DNA from: Hydrogenophaga sp. 2FB
Lineage (GTDB): Bacteria; Pseudomonadota; Gammaproteobacteria; Burkholderiales; Burkholderiaceae_C
Reading direction: 5' to 3'
DNA: 64,000 nt
Assembly: GCF_005503365.1 (NCBI RefSeq)
Contig: NZ_SCML01000003.1
Span: 1 to 64,000, forward strand
Shown: positions 26,101-34,578 of the stretch, one piece after another
Position numbering within the stretch: the stretch's first letter is position 1
Layout of the letters: each line of letters begins with the position of its first letter
Translations under genes and position numbers: made by a program
Notes under the pieces: model-generated
Databases searched by the model: none
Told to the model about the DNA's origin: nothing
Seen by the model: the letters and a program-made list of their open reading frames with translations, nothing else

Positions 26101-27534
26101 TCAGGCTGCGCGGCAGATCTTCAGCGTGTTGGTACCGCCCGCCTGGCCCATGGGCTCGCCCACGGTGATCGCATACACGTCGCCCGTCTGCACGATGCCG
26201 CGTTTCTGCAGATGCGCTTCGGCGTCCGCCAGCGCGTTGTCGCGGTCGGCGTTGTTGTCCATCAACAGCGGGCGCACGTTGCGGTAGAGCGTCATGCGGC
26301 GCTGCGTGGAGAGGTTGGGCGTCATGGCGTAGATCGGCATGCGCACGTTGTGCCGGCTCATCCACAGCGCGGTGGAACCCGAATCGGTCAGCGCCACGAT
26401 GGCCTTGGCGCCCAGGTGGTGGGCGGTGAACAGGGCACCCATGGCGATCGACTGGTCGATGCGCTTGAAGGTCTTGCCCTGGAAATCGGCGCTCAGTTCG
26501 CGGTACTCGGCCTTCTCGGCCTCCGAGCAGATGTTGGCCATTTCCATCACCGTCTCGAGCGGGTATTTGCCGGCGGCGGTTTCGGCGCTGAGCATCACCG
26601 CGTCGGTGCCGTCGAGCACGGCGTTGGCCACGTCGCTCACCTCGGCGCGCGTGGGCACCGGGTTGACGATCATCGACTCCATCATCTGCGTGGCGGTGAT
26701 CACCACCTTGTCCATTTCGCGCGCCAGCCGGATCATGTGCTTTTGCAAGCCCGGCACCGCCGCGTTGCCCACTTCCACCGCCAGGTCACCGCGCGCGACC
26801 ATGATGCCGTCGGACACCTTGAGGATGTTGGCCAGCTCGGGGATCGCCTCGGCGCGCTCGATCTTGGCGATCAACGCGGGCTTGTGCCCGACCGCCGCAC
26901 CCGCGACGTTGCAGAGCTGGCGCGCCAGCTCCATGTCGGTCGCATTCTTGGGGAAACTCACCGCCACGTAGTCGGCCTTCAGGCCCATGGCGGTCTTGAT
27001 GTCGTCCATGTCCTTGGCGGTCAGCGCGGGCGCGGTCAGGCCGCCGCCCTGCTTGTTGATGCCCTTGTTGTTGGACAGCTCGCCGCCGAGCTTGACGGTG
27101 GTGTGCACCGCCGGGCCGGCCACCTTGTTGACGGTGAGCACGATCAGGCCGTCGTTGAGCAGCAGCGTGTCGCCGGCCTTCACGTCGCGCGGCAGTTCCT
27201 TGTAGTCCAGGCCCACGCCTTCGATGTCGCCCGGTTCGGTGCGCGAGGCATCGAGCACGAAGGGCTGGCCCGGCTCCAGCATCACCTTGCCTTGCGCGAA
27301 CTTGCCGACGCGGATCTTGGGCCCCTGCAGGTCGGCCATGATGCCGACCTCGCGGCCCGCGCGCTGCGCGGCCGCGCGCACCAGCTCGGCGCGGTCGATG
27401 TGGTCCTGCGCGATGCCATGCGAGAAGTTGAGCCGCACCACGTTCACGCCGGCGCGGATCATGCGTTCAAGCAGATCCGGGTCGCTGGAAGCAGGGCCGA
27501 GGGTGGCAACGATCTTGGTGGCGCGCATGGGCAT
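26101..27534 (-). CDS. pyk: Pyruvate kinase
   Basis: 477 aa. Converts PEP and ADP to pyruvate and ATP. Motifs: TKIVATLGPASSD at the N-terminus, LNFSHG, the active-site segment ALIAKIERAEAI with catalytic Lys, GIMVARGDLAVEVG for Mg binding and ITATQMMESM. The C-terminal effector domain (about 345-477) is present. Upstream, centred about 65 bases before the start, is an extended inverted repeat that could be an operator. Confidence 0.95.
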   Translation of the reverse strand: MPMRATKIVATLGPASSDPDLLERMIRAGVNVVRLNFSHGIAQDHIDRAELVRAAAQRAGREVGIMADLQGPKIRVGKFAQGKVMLEPGQPFVLDASRTEPGDIEGVGLDYKELPRDVKAGDTLLLNDGLIVLTVNKVAGPAVHTTVKLGGELSNNKGINKQGGGLTAPALTAKDMDDIKTAMGLKADYVAVSFPKNATDMELARQLCNVAGAAVGHKPALIAKIERAEAIPELANILKVSDGIMVARGDLAVEVGNAAVPGLQKHMIRLAREMDKVVITATQMMESMIVNPVPTRAEVSDVANAVLDGTDAVMLSAETAAGKYPLETVMEMANICSEAEKAEYRELSADFQGKTFKRIDQSIAMGALFTAHHLGAKAIVALTDSGSTALWMSRHNVRMPIYAMTPNLSTQRRMTLYRNVRPLLMDNNADRDNALADAEAHLQKRGIVQTGDVYAITVGEPMGQAGGTNTLKICRAA

Positions 27535-27581
27535 GGAAACTGTCTCCTGAAGGGAACGAGGAAGTGGCCGTACAGGCCGGT

Positions 27582-27620
27582 TTGTAATTTGGTTTCAATT
27601 ATCTGTGAAACCAGTTACAA
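27582..27620. promoter_or_regulatory. Extended inverted repeat upstream of pyk
   Basis: The left arm TTGTAA-TT-TGGTTTCA and right arm TGAAACCA-G-TTACAA mirror each other around an 8-base spacer; the inner 8-bp arms are perfect. It lies about 50-85 bases before the pyk start and 14 bases after the sensor kinase stop. No T-run marks it as a terminator, so an operator for pyk is likelier. Its TGTAAT/TTACA outer half-sites recall HexR-like sugar regulators, but the spacing differs. Confidence 0.5.
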
Positions 27621-27634
27621 CCCGGTTACCACCG

Positions 27635-28996
27635 TCACGCGCTGCGTTCCGTGTCGGTCGAGACCTCGGGCGCCTGCGCCGGCAACTCGGCCTCGACGTG
27701 CGTGCCCAGGTTGGGTGCGCTGATGATCTCGAGTTTGCCTGCGTGCGCCTCCACGCGCACGCGCATGCCCAGCAGGCCATGGTGGCCGGGGGCCACGGCG
27801 TCGGTGTCGAAGCCACCGCCATCGTCGCGCACCGACACGCGCACCCACGGGCCGGTCTGCGCCAGCTCCACCCAGACCTGTTTGGCCCGCGCGTACTTGC
27901 TCACGTTGGTGAGCGATTCCTGCACCAACCGGTACGCGGTGAGCTCGGCATCCTTGCCCAGTTCCACCGGTGAGAGCTGCATGTGCACCGGGACGCCGAG
28001 GCCGCCCGCCGCGTCCTGGCACAACATCTCCAGCGCCGGGATGAGGCCGAGTTGGTCGAGCGACGACGGGCGCAGGTGTTCGATGATGCGGCGCTTGACG
28101 GCAATGCCTTCGTTGAGCCGCTGTTCGATGCCGGCCAGGCGCTCTCGCGCGGCGTCGGGCACGTCGGCCACGCGCCGCAGGCGGGCGATCTCCAGCTTCA
28201 TGGCGGTGAACAGGCCACCCAGTTCGTCGTGCAGCTCGCGCGCCACGCGGCTGCGTTCGTCCTCGCGTGCGTTCACGTGGTGGCCGGCCAGGTTGCGCAG
28301 GGCCTGGGTGCGCAGGGCTACCTGGGAAGCGAGGCGGCCGAGTTCCTCGGCCTCGCGGCGATCGCCTTCGCGCAACTGGCGCATGAAGAGGGCCAGCGCC
28401 AGCACCGCCAGCACCACCAGGGCGTGCAGGGCGACGCGGTTGATCAGCATGGCGTCGAAGAGCGAGACGCGTGTCGAGCGCTGGGCGATCGCCGTGCGCT
28501 CGAGCACGGATTCAAATTCGTCGCGCATGGTGGCATAGCGCTGGCGGCTCTGGTTGCCGTTGGCCAACGCCTGGGCCTGCGCGCTGCGCCCTTGCTCGGC
28601 CGTGCGAACCCACTCGTCCAGCGTGGCTGCGTGCGCATCGATTCGCTGGTTCACGTTGCTCAGGGACAAGGTGTGGCGCGGGTCGAGGACGTTCAGCAAC
28701 TGGGCCACACCCTTGCGCACGCCCTGCATTTCGTTGATCGCCTCGCGGTAGGTCGCCAGGTCGTCCTGACGGCCGCTGGCAATGAACGCGCGCGCGGCGT
28801 TTTCCGCATCGGTCAGCGTTTGCAAGGTGCGTGCGGCCTGCAGGCGCGCGTCGGACAACATGACGCCTTGTTCGAGCGTGGAGCGCGAGTGCTGGTAGGC
28901 GCTTTCGGTGATGGCGATGGTGATTACGGCCAAGGCCACGATGATGGGCATCACGTACCGGGCGCGGGCGACGCGTTCGATGGACGACTTGATCAT
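27635..28996 (-). CDS. Membrane sensor histidine kinase (CHASE3-like, HisKA_3)
   Basis: 453 aa. Two transmembrane helices (about 14-33 and 188-208) enclose a helical periplasmic domain with a CHASE3-like pattern ([21 protein letters not shown]). The HisKA_3 dimerisation helix has the phosphoacceptor ELHDELGG (His256), and the HATPase_c domain ends with DDGGGFD and [14 protein letters not shown]. Such kinases usually pair with NarL/LuxR-type regulators. Third gene of a unit (receiver, kinase, kinase) with a 4-base overlap to the upstream kinase. Confidence 0.88.
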
Positions 28997-30378
28997 GGCG
29001 GGCTCTCGGATCGCAATGCTTGAGGGTCAGGGGTGGGCAAACGCACCTGCACGTAGGTGCCTTCGCCTGGCGTGGAGCGCACGGAGAAATGGCCGCCGCG
29101 CGATTCGATGCGGTGGCGCAGGTTCCTCAGCCCGAGCGCCGATGTGGAGCGGGGTTGGCCGGCGAAGCCCCGGCCATTGTCGGACAGGGTGAGCACCAGT
29201 TCGGCGCCATCGGCCACCAGCGACAGCGTCACCTGGCTGGCCTTCGCGTGCCGTTCGATGTTGGAAAAGATGCCCTGCACCACCGAGAACAGCGCCTGCC
29301 GGGTGGCGGCGTCGGTGTCCACCACCTGCACGTCCAGGTCGACCGGAACGCCCGTGAGCTGGCGGAACGCACGCACACGCTCTTCGATCGCCGCCTGCAA
29401 CCCGAGGTTGTGCAGGGCCGCCGGCATGAGACCTTCCATCAGCCGCCGCTTTGTGTCGATGCCCTGGTCCAGGGTGGCGCTCAGGTGTTGCAGACGTGTC
29501 ATCACGTCGGCGCTGGGGGCTGGCAGGGCGTGGCGCAGGCGCGTGAGGTCGAACTTGGCGGCGGTGAGCAGCGCGCCCAGTTCGTCGTGCATCGAGCGCG
29601 CCAGCCCGCTGCGCTCGCCGTCGCGCAGTTCCTGCAGGCTCAGGTTGAGCTGCGCGAGTTCTTCGGTGCGCACGCGCACCTGGTGTTCGAGCGAATCGCG
29701 CTCGGCTTGCAACTGCTGGGCGTGTGCCAGCTGGCTGGCCTGCAGCGCGGCGTTCTTGCGCAGAAAGAACACATAGGCCAGCAAACTCAGCACGGTCAGT
29801 CCATGCACGCTCAGGCGCCCGACATCGAGCGTGCGGTAGATGCCGGCGCGCTCGATCGCCACGCGGCGGTCTTCGGTCACCAGAAGCACGTCGGCGATGC
29901 GGCGCGCACTCTCCATTTTTTCGCGCCCGATGTCGGTCAGCAGCAGGCCCTTCCAGCTCTCGTGCGAGCCCTGGTTGTATAGCGCAATGGTCGCTTCGAC
30001 CTCGGACGTCTTCTGCAGCACCTGTTCTTCCAGCGCACCGACCAGCCGCAGGAGTTCGGGATCGTTCCGATGGTGTTCGCGCAGCCGGATGATGGCGTGG
30101 GTCATGTCGGTTTCCGCGGCGTTGTAGGGTTCCAGGTACTGGGGGCGACCCGTGAGCAGGTACCCGCGCTGGGCGGTTTCGACGTCGAGCAGACGGCGCA
30201 TCACCGTCTGCACGGCCGTGCGCGCGTTGTCGCGCGCGCCCAGGCTGAACATGGAATCGCGCGCGCGCTGGTAGACCCATTCCGAACCGACGAAGACCGC
30301 GAGCGCCAGCACCGCCGCCACCGCCATGGCCAGCGATGTGCGCCACGGCGCGAAGCGCCAGGGGTGGGCGGTGGGCAT
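28993..30378 (-). CDS. Membrane sensor histidine kinase (CHASE3-like, HisKA_3)
   Basis: 461 aa. A TM helix near 15-35 and another near 195-215 flank a helical sensor region (LLDVETAQRGYLLTGRPQYLEPYN, a classic CHASE3 opening). A coiled coil follows (about 220-255), then SMHDELGA with phosphoacceptor His264 and an HATPase_c domain (SDNGRGFAG). ATG 30378 is chosen over an upstream ATG because it follows the receiver gene by 20 bases without overlap. It shares architecture with the next kinase but the sequences are diverged, so they may read different cues. Confidence 0.88.
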   Translation of the reverse strand: MPTAHPWRFAPWRTSLAMAVAAVLALAVFVGSEWVYQRARDSMFSLGARDNARTAVQTVMRRLLDVETAQRGYLLTGRPQYLEPYNAAETDMTHAIIRLREHHRNDPELLRLVGALEEQVLQKTSEVEATIALYNQGSHESWKGLLLTDIGREKMESARRIADVLLVTEDRRVAIERAGIYRTLDVGRLSVHGLTVLSLLAYVFFLRKNAALQASQLAHAQQLQAERDSLEHQVRVRTEELAQLNLSLQELRDGERSGLARSMHDELGALLTAAKFDLTRLRHALPAPSADVMTRLQHLSATLDQGIDTKRRLMEGLMPAALHNLGLQAAIEERVRAFRQLTGVPVDLDVQVVDTDAATRQALFSVVQGIFSNIERHAKASQVTLSLVADGAELVLTLSDNGRGFAGQPRSTSALGLRNLRHRIESRGGHFSVRSTPGEGTYVQVRLPTPDPQALRSESPP

Positions 30379-30398
30379 CGGGGTTCGGCGCAGCGGAC

Positions 30399-30800
30399 TT
30401 ATTGCAGGCCGGCGGGCAAGGTGGCCGTGCCGTCGGAGATGCGAGCGCAATACGTGATCAGGTCTTCGAGTTCGCTGGACTTGTCGAACACCCGATCGGC
30501 ACCCAGCGCCGCGCAGCGCTGGCGGATGTCGGCGGTGGCGTAGTTGGTCAGCACCACCCGGCGCACCGGCAGGCGCGAGTCCTGGGCGGCTTTGAGCACG
30601 CCCAGGCCCGAGCCGGAGGTGAGGAAGATGTCGATGATCATGAGGTCGCAGGTGTCACCGCTTTGGAGCCAGCGCACCGCATCGGTTTCATCGCGCGCGT
30701 GCCCGACCACCTCCACATTGGTCAGCTCTTCAAGCGTCGAAACCAGGTTCTCGTAGATCACCTTGTTGTCCTCGACGATGAAGGTTCTGAGCGGAGACAT
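30399..30800 (-). CDS. Single-domain response regulator (receiver only)
   Basis: 133 aa, a receiver domain with no output domain. Key residues are present: acidic pair Glu10/Asp11, phosphoacceptor Asp57 (MIIDIF), Thr85 and Lys107. First gene of the unit with the two HisKA_3 kinases. With no DNA-binding domain it may act by protein contact or as a phosphate sink or relay; the NarL-type regulator encoded 1.6 kb away is the nearest candidate output. Start 30800 is the first ATG that puts the acidic pair at the proper distance. Confidence 0.87.
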   Translation of the reverse strand: MSPLRTFIVEDNKVIYENLVSTLEELTNVEVVGHARDETDAVRWLQSGDTCDLMIIDIFLTSGSGLGVLKAAQDSRLPVRRVVLTNYATADIRQRCAALGADRVFDKSSELEDLITYCARISDGTATLPAGLQ

Positions 30801-30888
30801 GGGAGCAGGGCCTGACCGTTGTGGGGAAGGAGCACGAAGGCTTGAATCGTGCCGCGTTCGCATTCCCATTGTGCCGCTGGCATTGCGC

Positions 30889-30920
30889 ATTGTGGTGTAG
30901 GACTTTGCCTACACCACAAT
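30889..30920. promoter_or_regulatory. Perfect 13-bp inverted repeat (operator candidate)
   Basis: ATTGTGGTGTAGG and CCTACACCACAAT pair perfectly around a 6-base spacer (ACTTTG). It lies 88 bases upstream of the receiver gene start and 9 bases past the stop of the BON gene. No T-run follows on either strand. The core TGTAGG recurs in other gaps of this block, which favours a protein-binding site over a simple terminator. Confidence 0.6.
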
Positions 30921-30929
30921 GCGGCCGAC

Positions 30930-31244
30930 TCAGGGACGCACGACGATGTCGTTGCGCACCGACTTCACGCCGTCGACGTTGCGTGCCAGGCGTTCGGCCG
31001 CGCCGCGTTCGGCTTCGGACTTGGCGAACCCGGAGAGCTGCACCGTGCCCTTGAGCGTCTCGACGTTGATGGACGTCGCGGCGACGGTCGGGTCCTTGGC
31101 GTAGGCGGCTTTCACCCGGGTGGTGAGGGTGGCGTCGTCGATGAAGGAGCCGACGGTCTGCTGGTCGCGGGCGACCGCGCAGCCGGTGACTTGCACAACA
31201 GCGAGGGCCGCAGCGGCGGCGAGAACAACATGGGTCAGCTTCAT
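30930..31244 (-). CDS. BON-domain lipoprotein
   Basis: 104 aa. Signal with lipobox VTGC (Cys22), then one BON domain (about 37-103: TTRVKAAYAKDPTVAATSINVETLKGTVQLSGF). BON domains bind phospholipid or peptidoglycan; OsmY-like members respond to osmotic stress. A second, longer BON lipoprotein follows upstream on the same strand. The upstream gap holds TCAATGTATGGGACTGCCGG, similar to the sequence ahead of the CsbD-like gene. Confidence 0.85.
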   Translation of the reverse strand: MKLTHVVLAAAAALAVVQVTGCAVARDQQTVGSFIDDATLTTRVKAAYAKDPTVAATSINVETLKGTVQLSGFAKSEAERGAAERLARNVDGVKSVRNDIVVRP

Positions 31245-31357
31245 GGCAATCTCCTCAGGTCAATGTATGGGACTGCCGGCGAAGGGGCTTCGAGATCGGG
31301 GCCATTTCGCGCGGCAGGGTGGTCATTCGAAACGTGCGGGAACAGAGTGAGCTGGCG

Positions 31358-31819
31358 TCAGCCCTTGGCGTCGACGGTCAGGCGGTTTTCCACCTTCACG
31401 ACGCCTTCGACGGCCGAGGCCAACATGGTCGCGCGGTCGCGCGCTGCGGCATCGGGGGCGGTGCCTTTGAGCTCGACGAGCCCGTTGTGGGTGTCCACGT
31501 TGATGCGCAATGCGCTCAATTGGGTATCGCCCGCCAGTGCGGCGTTGACCTTCGCGGTGATCGCCACGTCGGCGGCGCCGATGGCCATCTTGTCGCCGGC
31601 GGCGCTCAGCTTGTCGGCGGCTTCATTGCCGGCGGCCTTCAAGTCCTGGCCGGCCTCCTTGGCGTCGGCGCGCAGCTCGGCGCCCGCGCTCTGGGTGCTG
31701 TCGACCGCACCGTCGACGCGCTGGCCCACGGTGGCGTCTTCGCGCTCCCCACAAGCCACCAGCAAGGTGGCGGCCAATGCGGCGGCGGCCAGGGCGGTGT
31801 AACGTGTGTTGCGTGTCAT
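31358..31819 (-). CDS. BON-domain lipoprotein with Ala-rich spacer
   Basis: 153 aa. Lipobox LLVAC (Cys23), then a charged Ala-rich helical segment (about 30-85, many Ala/Lys/Glu/Asp, possibly coiled coil) and a C-terminal BON domain (about 85-150: AITAKVNAALAGDTQLSALRINVDTHNG). It is probably a periplasmic stress protein. It lies between the shorter BON protein and the CsbD-like gene on the same strand, with gaps of about 113 and 75 bases, so separate promoters are possible. Confidence 0.83.
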   Translation of the reverse strand: MTRNTRYTALAAAALAATLLVACGEREDATVGQRVDGAVDSTQSAGAELRADAKEAGQDLKAAGNEAADKLSAAGDKMAIGAADVAITAKVNAALAGDTQLSALRINVDTHNGLVELKGTAPDAAARDRATMLASAVEGVVKVENRLTVDAKG

Positions 31820-31894
31820 GTGTGTGTCCTTTGTGAATGGCGGGGTCGAACGTGGCGACCCTGCTGTTGAAGAAATAGCGTGGCGCTTGCCTGC

Positions 31895-32146
31895 TCAGCT
31901 TCCGAGCGGACCCTTGTCCTGCTTCGGCGTCTCGTCCATCCAGGCGTCGCCCACACGGCGTTCCCAGTCGGCGACCTGGCGTTCGGCTTCGTCCTTGGCA
32001 ACGCCATAACGCTCCTGGATCTTTCCGGACAGTTGTTCGCGCCGGCCAGCGACCACGTCGAGGTCGTCGTTGGTGAGCTTGCCCCACTGCTCGACCACCT
32101 TGCCCTTGGCCTGCTTCCAGTTGCCTTCGATGCGATCCCAGTTCAT
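31895..32146 (-). CDS. CsbD-like stress protein
   Basis: 83 aa. The start MNWDRIEGNWKQAKGKVVEQWGKLTNDDLD is the typical CsbD/YjbJ pattern: a small, highly charged, soluble protein abundant under general stress. The middle part KIQERYGVAKDEAERQVADWE also fits. ATG 32146 has a ribosome site (AAGGAGT) close upstream. The function of the family is unknown. The gap to the divergent NarL-type regulator contains three TGTAGG sites. Confidence 0.88.
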   Translation of the reverse strand: MNWDRIEGNWKQAKGKVVEQWGKLTNDDLDVVAGRREQLSGKIQERYGVAKDEAERQVADWERRVGDAWMDETPKQDKGPLGS

Positions 32147-32211
32147 GTGCGACTCCTTGAATGGATGGTTGTGAAACCGACCGTGAACGCTGGAGGGCGT
32201 CGGGCCGTAGC

Positions 32212-32299
32212 TCAATGTAGGCAATGCCGGCCGTGGGCGGTGTCGGGCAGGTCGCCGCGGCCGTGTAGGACAGAGCCGATGCGCGGGCAGGGTTGTAGG
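32212..32299. promoter_or_regulatory. Cluster of TGTAGG sites in the csbD-like/narL-type divergent region
   Basis: TGTAGG occurs at 32216-32221, 32264-32269 and 32294-32299, all on the plus strand, within the 239-base divergent region. The first is embedded in TCAATGTAGGCAATGCCGGC, which resembles the sequence at 31260 before the short BON gene. These look like repeated binding sites of a shared regulator or parts of its promoters. Confidence 0.45.
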
Positions 32300-32385
32300 A
32301 GCTGTCTGACTGCCGGCGTGCGATGCGCCTGTTAAATTGCATCGGCACACCCGCCCACCTCACACCAAGCGAGAAGAAGGACACC

Positions 32386-33018
32386 ATGATCAAGGTAGGC
32401 ATCGTCGACGACCACGCCATCGTGCGGTCCGGCCTGCGCCAGTTTCTCGGGGAGCACGTCGACCTGAAGGTGACGGGCGAAGCCAACAACGGCCGCGAAG
32501 CGCTCGAACTCGCGCGCGGTGGCGATGTGGACGTGCTGCTGATGGACATCTCCATGCCCGACCAGGGTGGCGTGGACGCGCTGCAGGCCATCCGGGCGCG
32601 CTTCCCCGACCTGCCAGTGCTCATCCTCAGCGGTTTTCCCGAGGCGCAGTACGCCACCACGCTGCTGCGCAACGGCGCCAGCGGCTACCTCAACAAGGAA
32701 TGCGAGCCCGAAGACATCGTCAACGCCATTCGCACCGTGGCGCGAGGGCGGCGCTACATCAGCCCGGCGGTGGCCGAGCTGCTGGCCGACAACGCGGCGG
32801 GCGATGCCGACCGCGCGCCGCACGAACTGCTGTCGGAACGTGAACTGCAGGTGTTCCTGCGCCTGGCCCAGGGCGAGACCATCGGCAACATGGCCGAGGC
32901 GATGTTCCTGAGCGTCAAGACCGTGAGCACCTACCGCACGCGCGTGCTGGAAAAGCTCAAGCTCACGAGCAACAGCGAACTCACCTATTACGCGCTCAAG
33001 AATGGCCTCATCCAGTGA
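32386..33018 (+). CDS. NarL/FixJ-family response regulator
   Basis: 210 aa. The receiver domain (about 1-120) has Asp8/Asp9, phosphoacceptor Asp54 (LLMDISMP) and YLNKE with the conserved Lys. The LuxR-type HTH (about 145-205) reads LLSERELQVFLRLAQGETIGNMAEAMFLSVKTVSTYR. It activates or represses target promoters when phosphorylated. No kinase is adjacent on this strand; the HisKA_3 kinases at 27.6-30.4 kb are the natural partners by family. ATG 32386 has a good ribosome site (GAGAAGAAGG). Confidence 0.92.
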   Translation: MIKVGIVDDHAIVRSGLRQFLGEHVDLKVTGEANNGREALELARGGDVDVLLMDISMPDQGGVDALQAIRARFPDLPVLILSGFPEAQYATTLLRNGASGYLNKECEPEDIVNAIRTVARGRRYISPAVAELLADNAAGDADRAPHELLSERELQVFLRLAQGETIGNMAEAMFLSVKTVSTYRTRVLEKLKLTSNSELTYYALKNGLIQ

Positions 33019-33158
33019 GGGCTGTCGGCTTTTTCCTACGCACACGCGGGATGCGGGCTTGCAGCGCTCGCGCGGGCCGCTGCCTACAGTGAGGTCATCA
33101 CAACGGCGGTCGTTGTGAACCCCCACCGGGTCGGCCCGCCGACCCTCAGGAGCCGACC

Positions 33159-33323
33159 ATGCTGCACTACGCTGTCGTTTTTTTCGTCATCGCACTGATC
33201 GCGGCCTTGCTGGGCTTCGGCGGTATTGCCGCCAGTGCAGCGGGCATTGCCCAGATCCTCTTTGTGATCTTCCTTGTGTTGGCCGTCGTGTCGGTCATCT
33301 TCGGGTTGATCCGCAAGCGGTAG
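33159..33323 (+). CDS. DUF1328 (YtjA-like) small membrane protein
   Basis: 54 aa, from [22 protein letters not shown] to FGLIRKR: two hydrophobic helices around a Gly-rich turn ([14 protein letters not shown]). This is the DUF1328/YtjA family, small inner-membrane proteins often induced by stress and of unknown role. A ribosome site (CAGGAG) precedes the ATG. The gap upstream contains CCTACG at 33035 and CCTACA at 33083, matching the TGTAGG sites seen elsewhere in this block. A terminator follows. Confidence 0.85.
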
Positions 33324-33354
33324 ACAAGCATTTCTCTGTTCTCCAGGACTTGAG

Positions 33355-33386
33355 GTCCGCGGTACGCAAGTGCCGCGGACTTTTTT
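33355..33386 (+). terminator. Intrinsic terminator after the DUF1328 gene
   Basis: GTCCGCGGTAC and GTGCCGCGGAC form an 11-bp stem (one G-T pair) with a GCAA tetraloop, followed by TTTTTT. The T-run overlaps the stop codon of the convergent MFS gene. Confidence 0.9.
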
Positions 33387-34578
33387 ATGGAGATGAGCGC
33401 CGCGTCTCTTCGCGCCACAGGGGCCGCAAAGCCCACAGCCCCAGCGCCGGGCCGATCGCCAGCCAGGGCAGCAGCGCGCCCAGGGGCACATGCCCGGCCA
33501 GCGACACGAACAGCAGGATGCTCGCGATCGAGATCGCGAAGCCGATGCTGTTGGTCAGCGTGAGCACGCTGCCCACGGCTTGCGGCGGCGCGTTGCGTGC
33601 GGTGAGGGTGGAGAACTGCGGCGAATCCCCGGCCACCGTGACACCCCAGAGCAACAGCCAGCCGAAGAACAGCGCATCGGGTGCGCCGATGGCCCATGGC
33701 GCGGCCAGACAACACAGCCCGCTGAGCCCCAACTGCACGCCCGCCACGCGCGCGCTGCCCCAGCGCTGCGCCACCCAGCCGCCACCGGCGCAGCCGATCG
33801 CGCCCGCGCCGAGCACGAAGAACGCCATCCAGGACAGCGCGGCGCCCTGCATGCGCGTGGCCAGCACCAGCGGCACCATCACCCACATGGTGTAGAGCTC
33901 CCACATGTGGCCGAAGTAGCCCAGCACCGAGCTGCGCACGCGCACGTCGGTCCACAGTGTGGCCAGCGCGCGCCACTGCAACACCGTCACGCGCGGCTGC
34001 GCGCCGGGTGGGTCGGCGGTGCAGAAGAACAGCAGCAGGCCGCCACTGGCCGCCAGGGCCGCCACACCCAGCATCAGCGTGGGCCAGGGCAGCGCGCCAC
34101 CCATGGCGCGCAGCGCGTGCGCGCTGGCCGAGCCGAGCACCAGCGCGGCGATGAGCAGGCCCAGCGCAGCACCGAGGCCGCGCGTGTACCACTGCGCGGC
34201 GATCTTCATGCCCACCGGGTAGATGCCCGCGAGAAAGAAACCGGTGGCAAAACGCCAGGCGAGCAGGGCCGTGTAGTCGCGCACCGTCCACCAGGCGCCC
34301 ACGGTGCAGGCCGCGCCCGCGAGCGCGCAGACCAGAAACACCCGGCGCGGCGCAAAGCGGTCGGCGATGGCCAGCAGCGCGAACACCAGCGTGCCCAGGA
34401 TGAAGCCGAACTGCAGCGACGAGGTGAGCGTGCCGACCGCGCTGGTGGCCCAGCCCAGCTCGCGCTGCAGGTCGGGCATGACGGCATTGACCGCGAACCA
34501 CAGCGAGGTGCCGAGAAACTGCGCCAACACCAACACCGGCAGGACGTGGCGCGGGACGGTGGTGCTCTGTGTGGTCAT
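33385..34578 (-). CDS. MFS transporter
   Basis: 397 aa with 12 predicted transmembrane helices. N-terminal text FLGTSLWFAVNAVMPDLQRELGW and the loop DRFAPRRVFLV fit a cyanate/nitrite-like or drug-proton MFS group. GFFLAGIYPVGMKIAAQW marks helix 4-5. The substrate is unknown. It starts 5 bases after the stop of the XRE-family regulator, so both form one operon and the regulator likely controls it. The stop overlaps the terminator of the preceding plus-strand gene. Confidence 0.83.
   Translation of the reverse strand: MTTQSTTVPRHVLPVLVLAQFLGTSLWFAVNAVMPDLQRELGWATSAVGTLTSSLQFGFILGTLVFALLAIADRFAPRRVFLVCALAGAACTVGAWWTVRDYTALLAWRFATGFFLAGIYPVGMKIAAQWYTRGLGAALGLLIAALVLGSASAHALRAMGGALPWPTLMLGVAALAASGGLLLFFCTADPPGAQPRVTVLQWRALATLWTDVRVRSSVLGYFGHMWELYTMWVMVPLVLATRMQGAALSWMAFFVLGAGAIGCAGGGWVAQRWGSARVAGVQLGLSGLCCLAAPWAIGAPDALFFGWLLLWGVTVAGDSPQFSTLTARNAPPQAVGSVLTLTNSIGFAISIASILLFVSLAGHVPLGALLPWLAIGPALGLWALRPLWREETRRSSP

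Follow-up and report, generated by a model that had tools for sequence, protein, structure and literature searches.

A GacA-related response regulator and dyad promoter boxes predicted to control a stress gene block in Hydrogenophaga

The CsbD/BON/DUF1328 block of Hydrogenophaga sp. 2FB

The DNA analysed here, referred to as the window, comprises 64,000 nucleotides of Hydrogenophaga sp. 2FB (RefSeq assembly GCF_005503365.1, contig NZ_SCML01000003.1, positions 1 to 64,000). It harbors a block of signalling and stress-type genes, in which two sensor histidine kinases, a single-domain receiver, two BON-domain proteins and a CsbD-like protein are encoded on the reverse strand, and a NarL/FixJ-type response regulator and a small DUF1328 membrane protein on the forward strand (Table 1). 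The intergenic gaps of this block are rich in the hexamer TGTAGG and its complement CCTACA. Comparison with related genomes makes it likely, at a probability of roughly 0.8, that the regulator encoded at 32386 binds dyad boxes of the form TGTMGG-N6-CCTACA in these gaps and thereby activates the CsbD gene, the DUF1328 gene and its own.

The CsbD and DUF1328 proteins exceeded the cut-offs of their Pfam families (PF05532, 75 bits against 40; PF07043, 55.8 bits against 27), and the BON domain was found in both BON proteins. The regulator possesses the two domains expected of the NarL/FixJ type, each above cut-off (PF00072, 95.6 bits; PF00196 [GerE], 53.4 bits), and its closest named relative, at 95% identity, is that of Hydrogenophaga sp. 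ECS22B1. Of the remaining products, the stand-alone receiver is encoded together with two kinases of the same type and could serve as a phosphate sink or adaptor.

Table 1 Genes, putative regulator boxes and putative promoter elements of the block (window coordinates).
Feature	Coordinates	Strand	Basis
Sensor histidine kinase, CHASE3-HisKA_3-HATPase	27635..28996	-	Pfam
Second sensor histidine kinase, CHASE3-HisKA_3-HATPase	28993..30378	-	Pfam; codon-usage gene calling starts it at 30327
Single-domain receiver protein	30399..30800	-	Pfam Response_reg
Putative regulator box, perfect dyad TGTAGG-N6-CCTACA, between BON and receiver genes	30896..30913	undefined	12/12
BON-domain protein (BON1), distantly OsmY-like	30930..31244	-	Pfam; NCBIfam OsmY model 63.8 bits, under cut-off
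BON-domain protein (BON2)	31358..31819	-	Pfam
CsbD-like protein	31895..32146	-	Pfam
Putative -10 hexamer TACATT, CsbD promoter (overlaps the TGTAGG at 32216)	32214..32219	-	+50 rule; such sites lack a left half
CCGACA element, +23 from box, -35 region of CsbD promoter	32241..32246	-	Pair spacing in relatives
Putative regulator box, degenerate dyad CATCGG-CTCTGT-CCTACA, CsbD promoter	32264..32281	-	10/12
Putative regulator box, degenerate dyad TGTAGG-AGCTGT-CTGACT, before regulator gene	32294..32311	+	10/12
Putative -10 region TTAAATT of regulator gene	32332..32338	+	-10-like hexamer search
NarL/FixJ-type response regulator, nearest UvrY/SirA/GacA branch	32386..33018	+	Pfam, NCBIfam, recognition-helix comparison
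Putative regulator box, dyad TGTCGG-CTTTTT-CCTACG, DUF1328 promoter	33023..33040	+	11/12
Putative -10 hexamer TACAGT, DUF1328 promoter (within the site at 33083)	33085..33090	+	50 bases after CCTACG; +50 rule
DUF1328 small membrane protein	33159..33323	+	Pfam

TGTAGG sites are concentrated in the gaps of the block

A first-pass annotation of the window had listed TGTAGG at 30896, 32216, 32264 and 32294, its complement at 30908 and 33083, a near copy (CCTACG) at 33035 and two similar 20-mers at 31260 and 32212, and had proposed one regulon under a shared factor, perhaps the NarL-type regulator. Every one of these sequences is present where it was placed. Across the whole window TGTAGG occurs 17 times against 6.5 expected, a number reached in none of 100 shuffles. 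The idea that the hexamer is no commoner in the block gaps than elsewhere does not hold: the seven gaps (828 bp) contain six sites, or 7.2 per kb, while 266 other gaps of the same genome (41,426 bp, drawn from 464 kb with genes called by a codon-usage script) contain 15, or 0.36 per kb—a roughly 20-fold difference (Poisson p 8e-7). These gaps were taken from 374 in all, of which 101, none with a site, were dropped as shorter than 20 bp or at least about 1500 bp long. As the hexamer had been picked by eye from the window, this p value overstates the case; multiplied by the approximately 2000 hexamers, it is still near 0.002.

Because the hexamer had been chosen after inspection of the window, we tested it in 80 loci from relatives, comparing the gaps that precede the CsbD, BON, receiver, DUF1328 and regulator genes with those before other genes in the same loci. 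In front of the gene group, CCTACA ranked first in enrichment among 2041 hexamers (230 seen, 59.5 expected) when a divergent gap was counted twice, and second among 2053 when each gap was counted once (185 group gaps, 267 others; 170 seen, 35.8 expected), the top rank then going to the overlapping GTAGGA. Its density amounted to 8.6 per kb in close and 4.7 per kb in more distant relatives, against 1.5 and 1.6 per kb, respectively, before other genes. The orientation was nearly uniform, with CCTACA-to-TGTAGG ratios on the gene strand of 43:0 for CsbD, 28:1 for DUF1328, 14:0 for BON1 and 7:0 for BON2. The exact motif GCCTACANTGANNT was found at four places, and the two outside the block precede genes with no clear stress role.

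Dyad boxes and -10-like hexamers are distinct kinds of site

Judged by sequence, the TGTAGG sites fall into two kinds, namely dyad boxes TGTMGG-N6-CCTACA and CCTACA-containing sites that resemble -10 hexamers. Three features had escaped the first-pass annotation: positions 30896–30913 form one single dyad with a spacing of 6; TGTCGG at 33023 and CCTACG at 33035 pair up as the left and right halves of another; and the sites at 32264 and 32294 each form half of a degenerate dyad, likewise with a spacing of 6. Just these four (30896, 32264, 32294, and 33023), all in the block, are the intergenic dyads of the window that match at least 10 of 12 positions, with 26 more in coding sequence; 400 kb of background contained 12 such intergenic dyads in 42,970 bp. 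The gaps immediately upstream of the window's two BON genes hold no dyad of this quality, and these genes may be transcribed from the CsbD promoter as one transcript.

In the relatives' upstream gaps, the left half nGT(C/A)GG at -12 is carried by the 101 CCTACA copies that are not followed by GT or TT (mean left-half score 3.81 of 6; background positions 1.83). The 23 copies that are followed by GT or TT averaged 2.0, and the corresponding hexamer, 50 bases downstream of a box, varies among relatives in the manner of a -10 element (TACAGT, TACATT or TAGAGT). Since their left halves are background-like and the hexamer varies, we read sites of the 32216 and 33083 type as -10 hexamers and reject the notion that every CCTACA is a site for the regulator. 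The original site list had mixed the two kinds: 32216 and 33083 look like -10 hexamers instead, and the element at 31260 would perhaps belong with them; by eye, no such element was seen in the other BON1 upstream regions inspected.

The 60 genomes of the genus contain 62 exact copies of TGTAGG-N6-CCTACA, spread over 48 of them. In the same genomes, spacings of 0 to 5 gave five places together and spacings of 7 to 16 gave six (11 for 16 spacings), and the dyad pattern read backward was present in three genomes, arguing that the spacing of 6 is selected. The dyads also keep characteristic company, as 57 of the 62 are near the gene of the window regulator's orthologue or of a paralogue. A paralogous NarL/FixJ-type regulator gene (Pfam assignment on one example) lies within 100 bp of 38 dyads, the orthologue within 5 kb of 19; seen from the paralogue's side, 38 of 42 listed genes have an exact dyad within 100 bp. 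The remaining five are a dyad on contig C104 of the 2FB genome, single dyads in G010 and G070, another in G060 that is located between a BON and a receiver gene, and a second copy in G065.

In loci L053 and L057 (genomes G022 and G003; around position 1501), the paralogous regulator gene is followed by the dyad TGTAGGGCTGGCCCTACA and then by a gene for a substrate-binding protein. Pfam confirmed receiver and GerE domains in the L057 paralogue (808–1488) and assigned its neighbor to the NMT1-like family PF13379, the family of nitrate-transport proteins.

A rigid putative promoter module upstream of CsbD, DUF1328, and BON genes

Two pairs of elements dominate the regions upstream of CsbD, DUF1328 and BON genes in relatives: CCTACA–CCTACA at a distance of 48 (13 times), and CCTACA–CCGACA at 23 (22 times) or 22 (nine times). 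Across 80 box rows, a set that took in other boxes and other genera, a search between +40 and +56 located the degenerate hexamer TAN[AG]NT in 29, always at +50. The same held for 38 composites of the form GTCCTACA-N16/17-CCGACA, of which 32 carried the hexamer at +50 within a search range of +36 to +65; among the other six, three have CACACT at +50 and three nothing similar.

A related geometry is seen before the regulator genes: of 22 rows searched between +26 and +52, 16 have a -10-like hexamer starting +39 from the box, and in the window such a hexamer starts 38–39 bases on from the box at 32294. This +39 corresponds to the same distance from the box center as that between CCGACA and the -10 hexamer in the CsbD module. 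With the -10 hexamer placed to start at -12, the boxes would be centered at -65.5 and -42.5 relative to the presumptive transcription starts.

Upstream of BON1 in loci L156–L193 (other genera, of the Pelomonas/Roseateles type), GTCCTACA and TCCGACA are kept before the BON gene by eye, and a GATAGT-like element downstream replaces TACAGT.

The module at unlinked places and its co-occurrence with the regulator

In the 2FB genome the composite exists at two places alone, the CsbD promoter and the unlinked position C104:124648, where it precedes a hemerythrin gene (PF01814). This second copy has TAGACT at +50, a feature outside the search pattern, and the adjoining gap holds the genome's only other exact dyad. 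The arrangement at this locus (L101, 1648–2544) is thus a hemerythrin gene with the box/CCGACA/-10 module, the gap with the exact dyad, and then a small membrane protein that has no Pfam match. Eight dyads with one mismatch were found in the same genome, six of them called coding and two intergenic. One of the latter, at C34:75971 (locus L108, 2622–2989), lies upstream of another small membrane protein; ERGEQRRLQQRT is common to this protein and to the one that follows the dyad on C104, and we note this as a lead to a possible further regulon member. Three further places of the GTCGG type include two intergenic ones before genes with no clear stress role and one in coding sequence.

In two relatives as well, composites off the regulator's contig precede genes of the same families (Pfam): a DUF1328 gene and a CsbD gene in G064, the former 2.7 kb from a contig end so that linkage to the regulator is possible, and a BON gene in G002. 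In G011, a composite with TAGACT at +50 on another contig (C170; locus L316, 1252–1628) stands before the gene of a short Q/N-rich protein, a possible regulon member.

Across the genus, 34 genomes have the regulator (at least 69% identity) and 26 lack it; the composite is present in 30 of the former and in none of the latter (Fisher p 8e-13, kinship ignored). Part of this relation had been predicted beforehand for a second set of genomes, in which the regulator was found in all 11 predicted carriers (77–92% identity) and was absent from ten of 12 predicted non-carriers, G076 and G077 having it; G060, which was outside the prediction, is without the regulator. A comparison less exposed to linkage is that of the CsbD genes themselves: six were found in the 13 regulator-less genomes examined (of 26), none with CCTACA in the roughly 270 bases upstream, and CCTACA is present in 17 of 18 CsbD upstream regions at regulator loci.

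Several observations weigh against control of these boxes by the regulator or limit its reach. Linkage confounds the co-occurrence, as most composites are near the gene of the regulator, and so does the incompleteness of assemblies; tree-aware independent pairs (tree built from the paralogue of 49 of the 60 genomes) gave four in agreement, none opposed and two undecided (p 0.125), numbers too small to decide. Four regulator-bearing genomes (G005, G006, G076, and G077) have no exact composite, and among the six CsbD genes from regulator-less genomes, that of G013, whose frame is broken, is preceded by a TGTAGG. The three unlinked composites of G011 precede genes with no clear stress role, two of them without the +50 hexamer, and one composite in G029 lies inside a called gene. 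The boxes at 32264 and 32294 score 10/12, like 11 intergenic background places (another scores 11) and most of the 26 coding matches of the window. A left half scoring at least 4 also accompanies 14 of 44 CCTACA copies before background genes, implying either a larger set of genes or a less specific box. The exact dyad between BON and receiver genes, present in 13 of 43 such loci, occurs in 13 of 20 among the closer relatives (L121–L143) and is absent from all 23 loci numbered L147 or higher; this site therefore belongs to Hydrogenophaga and its near relatives. Finally, neither GTMGG-N6-CCTACA (nine matches in the whole 2FB genome against 16 for the backward pattern) nor the dyad with up to two mismatches (231 against 211) is enriched genome-wide. 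With counts not above the backward control, we rejected a wide regulon built on looser boxes, and the regulon is therefore probably small.

Which factor reads the boxes

The strongest competitor of regulator 32386 is another regulator of the NarL/FixJ type, either the C35:28460 paralogue or, in related genomes, the one that adjoins its own dyad. NarL-type paralogues can share boxes, and the dyad-adjoining one has a nearly identical recognition helix (TVSTYRARVLEK versus TVSTYRTRVLEK; TVSVYRARVLEK in the C35 paralogue). However, many genomes that lack regulator 32386 retain one or both paralogues and yet have no composite, and in the 2FB genome C35 is the sole paralogue detected at E 1e-40. The flanking bases differ as well, with mostly GT-CCTACA at the stress genes and, by eye, GC-CCTACA in most dyads on the paralogue's side. 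On balance, we consider a paralogue an unlikely reader of the boxes at the stress genes. It is far less probable still that promoter or sigma-factor elements alone account for the recurrence, with CCTACA as part of -10 hexamers and no dedicated binding protein: such a reading would suit the -10-like sites 32216 and 33083, but leaves unexplained the dyad with its spacing of 6, the left halves and a box that precedes the -10 site by 48 bases. Equally improbable, and rejected, is the reading of 30896 as a terminator or processing hairpin in RNA, unrelated to the other sites. In its favor, the arms extend to about 16 complementary bases in the window, but in the gaps of six other genomes—most of them fetched because of the dyad—the flanks are by eye not likewise symmetric, just the 18-base core recurs and no T run follows directly, and no Rfam family reached the gathering threshold in 27000–34000, the stretch of the window that was scanned.

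Regulator 32386 thus remains our preferred reader, and the first-pass proposal of one regulon under a shared factor, probably this NarL-type regulator, is well supported by the dyad geometry, the nearness to the gene of the regulator or its paralogue, the rigid promoter spacing and the unlinked composite in the 2FB genome. From the boxes, their spacings, conservation and co-occurrence, all read from the DNA itself, we infer the following model. The CHASE3/HisKA_3 kinases encoded alongside would phosphorylate the GacA-related regulator, which would then bind the dyad boxes. A box or half-box centered near -42.5 would replace a poor -35 element, with a further box at -65.5, and binding would activate the genes for DUF1328, for the regulator itself and for CsbD, perhaps along with the BON genes that follow CsbD. 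Feedback on the receiver/kinase operon may come from the dyad in front of the receiver gene, and the same module at the unlinked place would bring the hemerythrin gene into the regulon; a role of these genes in stress is presumed. A bolder version is conceivable, although we rather doubt it: that this GacA-derived system, with its two CHASE3 kinases and a free receiver possibly acting as phosphate sink, is a principal stress regulator of Hydrogenophaga and related Burkholderiales, directly driving CsbD, BON, DUF1328 and hemerythrin genes via the rigid module (box, CCGACA at +23, -10 at +50) in a role held elsewhere by alternative sigma factors.

The analysis offers a concrete candidate regulator, a box and a promoter rule for widespread stress proteins of unclear function (CsbD, BON, and DUF1328), whose regulon thereby becomes predictable from sequence. 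Moreover, two paralogous regulators of one genus adjoin almost the same GacA-like dyad, with GT versus GC before CCTACA as the candidate discriminating base, making the pair a useful case of how paralogous regulators separate their targets.

A search for plasmid records in which one place spans 80% of the block returned none. The Ideonella dechloratans plasmid NZ_CP088082.1 (locus L080, 6014–10172) carries a copy of the regulator close to genes for a CHASE3 protein, a receiver and BON proteins.

Comparison with known systems

Among 95 NCBIfam models, the one for UvrY/SirA/GacA (NF007018) fitted the regulator best, at 188.2 bits against an equivalog cut-off of 280; by this cut-off, the protein is a relative of UvrY/SirA/GacA and not a member. 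OsmY-type genes are sigma-S genes in enterobacteria, and the OsmY model NF007858 gave the two BON proteins of the block 63.8 and 44 bits, below its cut-off of 174. GacS-type kinases are hybrids, whereas both kinases here are CHASE3-HisKA_3 proteins. Regulators of the UvrY/SirA/GacA family act through Rsm/Csr small RNAs; the Rfam scan of 27000–34000 mentioned above returned no family at gathering threshold.

The open-access papers searched contained no description that we recognised as this system. EvgA, another NarL/FixJ family member (PDB 5f64, 8zwn), resembles the regulator in the region of the recognition helix (KTVSTYKSRLMEKL versus KTVSTYRTRVLEKL) but differs in its NCBIfam score of 98 against a cut-off of 251; a literature search for the box sequence of EvgA found none. 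A CsbD/BON/DUF1328 cluster rises in an antimonite-resistant Achromobacter mutant (PMC11719878), although the excerpt of that paper names no regulator or box.

The closest parallel is the GacA box of Pseudomonas, given as TGTAAG-N6-CTTACA in an extract of PMC4950607, which has the same 6-base spacer and differs by one base per half-site. The box here reads TGTAGG-N6-CCTACA and so is not a GacA box in the strict sense (TGTAAG itself was not searched for). In contrast to the GacA system, the boxes described here precede protein genes, at a fixed distance from the -10 hexamer.

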